A DNA stretch of 64,000 nt, from the NCBI GenBank assembly GCA_022772675.1, contig JALEZW010000055.1, positions 33,631 through 97,630 on the forward strand, given 5' to 3'. The notes beneath the pieces were generated by a model. It ran no database searches, was not told where the DNA came from, and worked only from the letters and a program-made list of their open reading frames with translations. The translations under genes were made by a program, and so were the position numbers. Shown piece by piece: positions 16,159 through 64,000 of this stretch. How positions within the stretch are numbered: the stretch's first letter is position 1; each line of letters opens with the position of its first letter. The DNA comes from Agathobacter sp. (lineage in GTDB: Bacteria; Bacillota; Clostridia; Lachnospirales; Lachnospiraceae).

Positions 16159-16953
16159 TCAGCGAGAACCGGGCGAATCATTCAGGTACTGGTACATATT
16201 CTTCAGGGCATTTTTCTCCAGGCGGGAAACCTGTGCCTGGGAGATATGGATTTCATCCGCTACCTCAATCTGGGTTTTTCCTTCAAAAAACCGGAGCTTG
16301 ATAATCTGCTCGTCCCGCTTATTCAGATGGGAGAGGGCATCACTTAGAGACAGATCCTCCACCCAGTTATCCTCTTTATTTTTCTTGTCCGAAATCTGAT
16401 CCATCACATAAAGAGTATCTCCGCCGTCGGTGTAAACCGGATCGAAGAGGCTTAATGGGGTCTGGATGGCATCCAGTGCATAGACGATGTCTTCAGCAGG
16501 AATACCGCTTTCTTTGGCAATCTCATCCAGCGTAGGCTCTTTCTGGGAATCTTTGGAGAGACGCTCTTTTGCCTGCATGGCCTTGTAGGCAATGTCCCTT
16601 AAGGAGCGTGGGATTCTGTAGCTGCTGTTGTCACGTAGATATCGACGGATTTCCCCCACGATCATTGGTACCGCATAGGTGGAAAATTTTACCCCTACAT
16701 TTACATCAAAATTGTCGATTGCCTTCATGAGTCCGATGCATCCGATCTGAAACAGATCGTCCACATTTTCGTTGTGGTTGTGAAACCGTTTGATGACAGA
16801 AAGTACCAGACGAAGATTCCCTTCAATGTAGGTTTTACGTGCTTCCTGGTCGCCTTTTTGAATCCTGTCAAAGAGAGCCTCCTTCTCCTCATCTTTTAAA
16901 ATTGGCAGTTCCGATGTGTTCACACCGCAGATTTCCACTTTATATGAAGACAT
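16159..16953 (-). CDS. sigG: RNA polymerase sporulation sigma factor SigG
   Basis: MSSYKVEICGVNTSELPILK N-terminus; NLRLVLSVIKRFHNHNENVDDLFQIGCIGLMKAIDNFD; C-terminal HTH. Confidence 0.97.
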   Translation of the reverse strand: MSSYKVEICGVNTSELPILKDEEKEALFDRIQKGDQEARKTYIEGNLRLVLSVIKRFHNHNENVDDLFQIGCIGLMKAIDNFDVNVGVKFSTYAVPMIVGEIRRYLRDNSSYRIPRSLRDIAYKAMQAKERLSKDSQKEPTLDEIAKESGIPAEDIVYALDAIQTPLSLFDPVYTDGGDTLYVMDQISDKKNKEDNWVEDLSLSDALSHLNKRDEQIIKLRFFEGKTQIEVADEIHISQAQVSRLEKNALKNMYQYLNDSPGSR

Positions 16954-16990
16954 AACAAGATTCCTCCGATAAATTTTTGGTTTCTATAGA

Positions 16991-17248
16991 ATGATATGAG
17001 GGTCAAAAGGTATTTTGCCCCTCATTTGATACACGAATTGCTCCGTTGCTACGCAAGTCTTTGCTTCGCTCCGGTCGGCGCAAAGCAGACATCCACCGGA
17101 TGTCTTGCGCCCCGCAATTCTACACACATTCGGAATCCGTTGATTTTCCAAGGTAAATCACTACTTCCTCATGTGCGTGCGGGTCAACAAGTCAGAGCTC
17201 TTATCCTGCAAGCAGGAACGAGTTCTGACCTTTTGACCCTTGTATCAT
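16991..17248. repeat. Structured inverted-repeat element, copy A (complete)
   Basis: 20-bp imperfect terminal inverted repeats ATGATATGAGGGTCAAAAGG / CCTTTTGACCCTTGTATCAT; internal hairpins; related copies at 31059 and 59720. Confidence 0.8.
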
Positions 17249-17353
17249 AGAATAATCTTGTTCTTTTTTTTGCATTTTTATTCAGTTAATGTTATACTTT
17301 TCTCATGTTCGATGAAGGGGATTAAAATAGGAAAAATAAGGGAGGAACTTAAT

Positions 17354-31058: not shown

Positions 31059-31123
31059 ATGATAGGAAACGAAGCAATTCGTGTATCAAATGAGGGGAAA
31101 ATACCCTTTGACCCTCATATCAT
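31059..31123. repeat. Inverted-repeat element, copy C (65 bp, internally deleted, opposite orientation)
   Basis: Reverse complement ATGATATGAGGGTCAAAGGGTATTTTCCCCTCATTTGATACACGAATTGCTTCG matches the left end of copy A almost exactly; ends in ATGATA/TATCAT. Confidence 0.8.
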
Positions 31124-59719: not shown

Positions 59720-59778
59720 GCAAGAGCTCTTTTCCTGCAAGTAGGATAAGAGTTCTGACCTTTTGACCCTTGTATCAT
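59720..59778. repeat. Inverted-repeat element, copy B (right end only)
   Basis: gagctctt-tcctgcaag..agg...gagttctgaccttttgacccttgtatcat shared with the right end of copy A. Confidence 0.8.
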
Positions 59779-62283: not shown

Positions 62284-63648
62284 TTACCGATATCCGAAAC
62301 GAATTGCTCCAATTCCACGAAGCGGACGGGCAAATTGTCGGAATTCTGTTTTTACAGCGTGTACAAATTTTGTCATTAATTTAATGATATCTATGGGCTT
62401 ATGTGTATCCCTGCGGATAAAGAATTTTCTTGCAGCTTTTAATGCTGATGAAAAGTCAATTTCGTAGTTATATTTATTGTCCTTTTTCCGCTTCTTTTTC
62501 TGGTTTTCTTCTGCAGCTTCATTGGCCAGGAAGATTCCAAAATTGTACAGAATAAGATTGGCATATATTTCCTGTTTCAGGAAGTCTGGTTTCTTGGAAT
62601 GAAAATAAAGAAGACCATTTGCGTGTTTCAGATACCGGAAAGAAACTTCAATGCCCCAGCGCCAGTGATAGCATGCCTTGATATCTTCCAGATCAAAAGT
62701 GTGCGGCAGGCTGGTAATCATATATTCGTAAGTGTTATCTGCCACCTTGATTTTTACAACCCGGAACTGCATGAAATAAAGGTGTTTATCATCGAGAAGC
62801 TGCTGGAAATGGGGAATATTTTTGTTAGGATTCATGTAGCTGTATACGTCGGACTGGTCTTTCATGATATTGGTTTTTTTGTCCGTAAAAAAGCGTTTGA
62901 TCGTAACGTCGAATTCCTCCTGGTCATCGGGCAGTTCGTTGATATAGGAGGAAAGCAGGCTCCTTGATGAAGCAGGTGCCTTCATTCTGAAAATATAGTT
63001 CAGATGCTTTTGTTCGCAGTGAAAAAGAAGGTCATAAGATTCGTAGCCTCTGTCCGCAGTAACAATATATTTTTCCGGATCATCCGGCTGGAAATGGTCA
63101 AGCATTGTATGAAATGCTTCCCGTTCATCGGGCTGCTGTCCCGGCTGGATAACAATGTCAAGAAAAGCCTTGCTGATGACGTCAACAAAACCATTCAGAT
63201 GCATGTGGTTATAACCCTTGTAGTCGATAAGGTGGGGCTTATTATAGTCCTCAATAATCTCCGAATTAGTCGTGTAAACAACATGACACCCATCACAGGC
63301 GAGAATGCAGTAATCTTTAAATTTGTTGGTAGTCCTGGGAAAAGATGAAGAAAATTCCGAGAACAGATATTCAAAAGCAGAAAGTGAAATCTGGCTGCGA
63401 CGCTGGCAGAAAGCAGACTGTGAGGGAATGCGGTCCGGATCAAAATCAAAGTAATCCATGATCTCATCATTGGTGCTTTCCTTGCCTATACCGATGATCA
63501 TACGCATGGTGTCATAGAAAGACAGTTTTCCAAGATCCTGCCGCATAAAATCGTGCCCGGGATTATTGGAAAAAAGCCAGTGATGGTCAGCCATGTCAGA
63601 GATGATAGAATTCAGTTTTTCTTTTACATTTGTAGGAAAATCGTTCAT
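62284..63648 (-). CDS. IS4-family-like DDE transposase
   Basis: ILACDGCHVVYT, VTADRGYESYDLLFHCE, YHWRWGIEVSFRYLKHANGLLYFHSKK (Y-x2-R-x3-E-x6-K region). Confidence 0.9.
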   Translation of the reverse strand: MNDFPTNVKEKLNSIISDMADHHWLFSNNPGHDFMRQDLGKLSFYDTMRMIIGIGKESTNDEIMDYFDFDPDRIPSQSAFCQRRSQISLSAFEYLFSEFSSSFPRTTNKFKDYCILACDGCHVVYTTNSEIIEDYNKPHLIDYKGYNHMHLNGFVDVISKAFLDIVIQPGQQPDEREAFHTMLDHFQPDDPEKYIVTADRGYESYDLLFHCEQKHLNYIFRMKAPASSRSLLSSYINELPDDQEEFDVTIKRFFTDKKTNIMKDQSDVYSYMNPNKNIPHFQQLLDDKHLYFMQFRVVKIKVADNTYEYMITSLPHTFDLEDIKACYHWRWGIEVSFRYLKHANGLLYFHSKKPDFLKQEIYANLILYNFGIFLANEAAEENQKKKRKKDNKYNYEIDFSSALKAARKFFIRRDTHKPIDIIKLMTKFVHAVKTEFRQFARPLRGIGAIRFGYR

Positions 63649-63755: not shown

Positions 63756-64000
63756 GTGCGCCTTGCGGCGCACGTTTCTAATGGGTGAAAGTCCCTAATC
63801 CGCCCTAGTAGTGGGAAGGATACAGCCAAAGCTAAGGGTGTCCTATTCATAGCATCGACTATGATTAACGCGAGGGGAATCTGAAGGAAAGTGGAGGCAA
63901 ATCTCTGGTCTGACGAACAGAAATCACATCAGGCTATAGTTAAGGATAAGGTTGCATGGCAAACTGAAGTCCAATAACTACTCGGAATTAACTATAGTAA
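63756..64000 (+). mobile_element. 5' end of a group II intron (continues beyond window)
   Basis: Starts GTGCG; domain I-like sequence gggtgaaagtccctaatccgccctagtagtgggaaggatacagcc...gaatctgaaggaaagtggaggcaaa...ctgacgaacagaaatcacat. Confidence 0.85.

Follow-up and report, generated by a model that had tools for sequence, protein, structure and literature searches.

What is the short, hairpin-rich inverted repeat ahead of a sporulation sigma-factor gene in Agathobacter sp., and how did it come to be there? The stretch analyzed comprises 64,000 nucleotides of contig JALEZW010000055.1 (GenBank assembly GCA_022772675.1, positions 33,631 to 97,630 of the forward strand; hereafter the window), in which a first-pass annotation had marked a dispersed structured inverted-repeat element of unknown class. 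Our analysis indicates that this element is very likely a miniature inverted-repeat transposable element (MITE) which carries the Clostridiales-1 structured RNA as cargo and is probably moved in trans by an IS1182-like DDE transposase. The earlier description as both MITE-like and structured was right at the sequence level, given MITE-like transposition and membership in a conserved structured-RNA family, while the class turned out to be known in part. Using cmscan, the RNA part was identified as the Rfam family RF01699, 'Clostridiales-1 RNA' (17027–17247, minus strand), at 100.7 bits over model positions 1–166 of 166 with a gathering score of 48 bits. The first-pass annotation had itself named identity with a catalogued repeat family as an outcome that would count against it, and for the RNA part such an identity exists. 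The element and its parts were delimited as follows.

16992–17247, minus strand (RNA strand): complete element, 256 bp, based on terminal repeats and 5-bp duplication; copies genome-wide
16987–16991, no strand: target duplication TAGAA, left copy, from the sequence letters
17248–17252, no strand: target duplication TAGAA, right copy, from the sequence letters
16992–17009, plus strand: terminal inverted repeat at the RNA 3' end, TGATATGAGGGTCAAAAG, from the terminal-repeat search
17230–17247, minus strand: terminal inverted repeat at the RNA 5' end, TGATACAAGGGTCAAAAG, from the terminal-repeat search
17027–17247, minus strand: Clostridiales-1 RNA (RF01699), an outer stem enclosing three hairpins, based on covariance score and fold
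16996–17025, minus strand: 3'-terminal hairpin with the second terminal repeat, beyond the Rfam model, based on the fold; also in other genera
17077–17111, minus strand: extra lineage-specific hairpin within the last RNA arm, missing from the other 26 aligned elements
31068–31122, plus strand: truncated derivative, RNA 3' end and terminal hairpin (94.6% identity over 56 bp)
59723–59777, minus strand: truncated derivative comprising the RNA 5' arm and its terminal repeat (92.7% identity over 55 bp)

The near-matching terminal inverted repeats and the interior hairpins were borne out at the places first noted. The originally proposed length of 258 bp had to be shortened to 256 bp because the first A and the last T belong to the TAGAA duplication found on either side of the element. 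Two further derivatives had been reported for the window and are indeed present, though both are fragments. The element is short, with ends of about 18 bp, and the earlier statement that it has no coding capacity is in effect correct: although an open frame of 84 amino acids (16996–17250) spans it, a protein-coding role was rejected since element lengths in other genera (184, 185, 186, 187, 194, 195, 196, 203, 205, 206 and 212 bp) are not in one frame. The predicted folding energy of the window copy is -115.5 kcal/mol (z = -9.1), a value reached by none of 200 shuffled sequences.

Target-site duplications, which the first-pass annotation had proposed to look for, were found to be 5 to 6 bp long and in register with the ends of the element. 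Of 23 bounded copies in the Agathobacter genome, 10 were flanked, directly at the edge of the terminal repeat, by an exact duplication of 5 bp and two by one of 6 bp, and this signal was lost when the edge was moved by one base. Corresponding values were 39 and 8 of 61 copies in G038, a copy-rich genome from a different genus, and 18 and 6 of 36 copies in a mixed set from further genera, so that duplications of either length accompany 12 of 23, 47 of 61 and 24 of 36 copies, respectively. Re-paired flanks were used as a control and yielded null means of about 1 to 3 for the dominant 5-bp class (1.2, maximum 5 in 2000 re-pairings, for the Agathobacter genome; 2.7, maximum 9, for G038; 1.0, maximum 5, for the mixed set). 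The consensus of the duplicated target is TNNTA. A crude open-frame test of insertion sites gave a hint that genes are avoided. Tandem copies sharing a single duplication (target-element-target-element-target) were observed at three loci of G038 (L181, L182 and L183) and at one locus of the Agathobacter genome (L010, C48:68612-68846), which suggests either re-insertion at the duplicated target or unequal exchange through it.

The window copy is located upstream of a gene (16159–16953, minus strand) that we take, from its sequence, to be a sigG/spoIIIG-like sporulation sigma-factor gene. It lies between the sigG start codon and a conserved upstream block, with the RNA strand in the same sense as sigG. 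A search for empty orthologous sites, also suggested by the first-pass annotation, was positive: the sigG upstream region of six congeners is free of the element, and the joined flanks align to all six better than the occupied site does, at identities of at most 78%, a divergence at which the exact join is not readable. The position and orientation of the window copy, together with the fragment at 31068–31122 immediately upstream of another gene start, could also be explained if the host had co-opted the element mainly as a cis-regulatory leader, in this case for sigG, and its mobility lay in the past. This explanation is highly improbable, as the insertion is missing from the six congeners and therefore lineage-specific, and local co-option would leave unexplained why the fold is conserved across many genera at unrelated sites. 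The element interrupts the sigG leader (16959–17300), whose conserved TTTTTTTGCATTTTTATTCAG block is retained in congeners; in our own reading, this block may represent a sigma-F/G-like promoter on the sigG strand. A contig search with the neighboring 408-residue protein returned no match.

The element is a genome-level repeat, as first proposed. It is present in the Agathobacter genome in high copy number, including near-identical copies, with 52 blastn pieces, 42 RF01699 matches and 124 terminal-repeat matches compared with 10 for the same pattern read backwards. Within the window, five terminal-repeat matches were detected where 0.37 were expected, a number reached by none of 100 shuffles. 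Derivative short forms include double ends of 38 bp as well as 71-bp and 109-bp variants. Many contigs of this draft genome terminate inside the element, which its status as transposable-element cargo probably accounts for. Beyond this genome, RF01699 was detected in 113 of 200 genomes of one family (one per genus), many with at least 13 copies, and in none of 14 control genomes. Across a wider sample of the class, 12 of 293 genomes contained the RNA, nine of them within the same RNA-rich family, and the RNA is rare outside that family in this sample. The family is probably Lachnospiraceae because a transposase from one of its members (genome G110) matches an Anaerobium acetethylicum record at 100%. 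Phage and plasmid collections contained only partial pieces of the element.

Comparison across genera indicated that the transposed unit extends about 36 bp past the Rfam match on the RNA 3' side. At 30 of 40 cross-genus loci, additional sequence lies beyond the RNA and ends in a second terminal repeat; in most cases it forms a hairpin of about 27–36 bp. The arms of this hairpin vary by genus and mostly still pair (for example GGGGTC/GACCCC, AGGTC/GACCT, GCGTC/GACGC, GTGTC/GACAC). As the segment lies past the model, Rfam annotation removes the 3' end of the transposon. The founding study of RF01699 rates the family as a probable RNA that is probably not cis-regulatory; in the main text, the RNA is mentioned only in the table giving this assessment (Weinberg et al. 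2010, PMC2864571). Rfam classifies it as 'Gene; sRNA', not as a mobile element. While the RNA part of the window element corresponds to this family by covariance model, with an outer stem and three hairpins, the catalogued small RNA (sRNA) ends at the outer stem, whereas the unit described here continues to the second terminal repeat and, judging from its flanks, transposes with 5–6-bp duplications. We found no paper describing Clostridiales-1 as a transposing unit; the supplements of the 2010 study lay outside this search and may contain a remark on repeats. Our literature search likewise found no paper tying IS1182 or Lachnospiraceae to such an element.

To characterize conservation of the cargo, the structure of the G047 element was projected onto an alignment of 27 elements from at least 26 genera. 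Paired cells amounted to 83.4%, and 45 of 68 pairs vary on both sides. Double changes were found in 238 cells, compared with a shuffle average of 86 and with at most 71 for structures slid by 1–3 columns, the latter being the fairer control as kinship inflates covariation counts. The same core architecture was recovered by RNAalifold. Further, identity reaches at least 90% in 16 unpaired interior columns, including facing GA/GA internal loops and GGA stretches; in these alignments, such near-fixed unpaired bases argue for RNA over mere palindromic DNA. Given the strong covariation of the fold in at least 26 genera and the almost invariant bases of the internal loops, we regard the cargo as a selected structure on comparative sequence grounds. 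Strong covariation and conserved loop bases would also be expected of a stand-alone sRNA gene acting in trans and merely duplicated around genomes, in line with the Rfam entry and with the assessment of the founding study (probable RNA, not cis-regulatory; PMC2864571). However, the structure starts at the first base of the terminal repeat, leaving no common upstream promoter, and flanks differ at each insertion. With no upstream sequence in common among insertions, and with 5–6-bp duplications and dozens of copies per genome, a stand-alone gene is unlikely.

The first-pass annotation had further proposed searching for a transposase with matching ends, and this was successful in genomes other than the window's own. 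Eight genomes were examined for PF13751 transposases, and one such transposase, in G110, has the terminal repeat of the element and a 6-bp duplication (TCAATA) on both sides. This protein of 535 amino acids is distantly IS1182-like and contains DUF772 and DDE_Tnp_1_6 domains. The transposase or its relatives were found at 12 loci in GTDB genomes, all recorded as Lachnospiraceae, and insertion sequences combining the terminal repeat (TGATGTTGGGGTCAAA...) with a 5–6-bp duplication are present in at least nine Lachnospiraceae genomes. The repeat was detected within three mismatches in 18 of 22 flanks of transposase relatives compared with 9 of 1100 shuffled flanks. Of eight insertion sequences with both ends, six show duplications (taata, tttta, tataa, tcaata, taata and tatga). 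Two Butyrivibrio copies of the insertion sequence start with TGATGTTGGGGTCAAAAGCCCC, the exact letters of the 3' terminus of the G047 RNA element. RF01699 was not found inside any of these insertion sequences. Based on the shared terminal repeat and duplication length, the IS1182-like insertion sequence is the likely mobilizer of the element. One Clostridiales-1 element directly adjoins a transposase relative (L349); at either end of this element (L349:4255-4450), GCGTC takes the place of GGGTC, a hint that the two ends may change in concert with the transposase.

Other transposases did not carry the ends of the element, neither the PF00665 proteins (IS3/IS21/IS30/IS481 type; 24 loci) nor the PF01609 proteins (IS4/IS5/IS1634 type) of the tested genomes. 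An IS4-type transposase domain (PF01609) in the window itself (62539–63312, minus strand, within a 469-residue open frame) likewise has no such terminal repeats. Convergent terminal repeats 1–3 kb apart in G038, considered as possible insertion sequences, proved to be neighboring MITEs flanking ordinary genes. The occurrence of palindromic 38-bp and 71-bp forms raises the question of whether the element could be a REP/BIME-like palindromic repeat that RAYT or another Y1 (HUH) transposase mobilizes and that is selected as DNA hairpins only. To our knowledge, Y1 enzymes leave no target duplication. The predominance of 5–6-bp duplications does not fit the duplication-free HUH chemistry of REP/RAYT or IS200/IS605 systems, the matching transposase carries DDE-type domains, and palindromes alone would leave the nearly fixed unpaired loop bases unexplained. 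A REP/BIME-like origin therefore seems extremely improbable.

Several observations weigh against a MITE mobilized by an IS1182-like transposase. The best NCBIfam model for the G110 transposase is IS1182, at 120.8 bits and thus below the cut-off of 270, which is why we use the label 'IS1182-like' only. Neither the window's own draft genome (91% complete) nor G038, the genome richest in copies, yielded an insertion sequence with these ends. Roughly a quarter to half of the copies show no clean duplication, and 10 of the 40 cross-genus RNA matches have no recognizable second end.

Mechanistically, a related insertion sequence would supply an IS1182-like DDE transposase in trans. The enzyme would recognize the ends of about 18 bp (TGATRYNNGGGTCAAAAG), cut at TGAT...ATCA and join the element into AT-rich TNNTA sites, duplicating five and sometimes six bases. 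At most junctions, the TNNTA target and TGAT end combine to TATGAT, for example at 17244–17252 (minus strand) of the window. This sequence possibly constitutes a near-consensus -10 box pointing inward, in which case each insertion could create its own weak promoter for the RNA. The element is presumably transcribed, and its conserved fold presumably acts at the RNA level. As to a role, our preferred guess is that the RNA helps the element to be tolerated or passed on; it could, for instance, serve as an inert structured leader or engage the machinery of transposition. A more far-reaching but doubtful possibility is that Clostridiales-1 RNA, confined to the non-autonomous element, is a working part of the transposition system: by engaging either the host or the IS1182-like transposase, it would let the element spread better than the insertion sequence itself.

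Bacterial MITEs include RUP, Correia/NEMIS and ERIC. The element resembles them in being short, non-coding and present in many copies, with terminal inverted repeats, target duplication and probable mobilization in trans by a related insertion sequence, but it duplicates 5–6-bp TNNTA rather than TA, and its interior consists of a structured RNA that covaries and has been retained in at least 26 genera. As MITE interiors normally decay, an interior fold under selection over this range is unusual. With the IS1182 family, the candidate mobilizer shares its domains and best model, though not a score above the cut-off, and the RNA element lacks a transposase just as the insertion sequences lack RF01699. 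Conserved structured RNAs within the ends of mobile elements also occur among transposon-encoded guide RNAs, namely the omega RNA of IS200/IS605 and the bridge RNA of IS110. The present case differs in that the non-autonomous element alone contains the RNA, the candidate transposase belongs to the DDE type, and the Clostridiales-1 element RNA showed no guide-like segment. Separately, a group II intron domain (RF02001; 93.4 bits) was detected whose first part occupies 63864–64000 and which continues past the end of the window.

In conclusion, an orphan Rfam family regarded as a probable non-coding RNA since 2010 appears to travel as cargo in a transposable element for which ends, a target preference and a candidate transposase can be specified. 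This status changes the reading and annotation of the many copies of the RNA family. It also makes the function of the RNA testable, in terms of relevance to transposition, to the host or to neither. Should the RNA prove to be a working part of transposition, the element would be a MITE that is assisted by RNA and conserved in a bacterial family.
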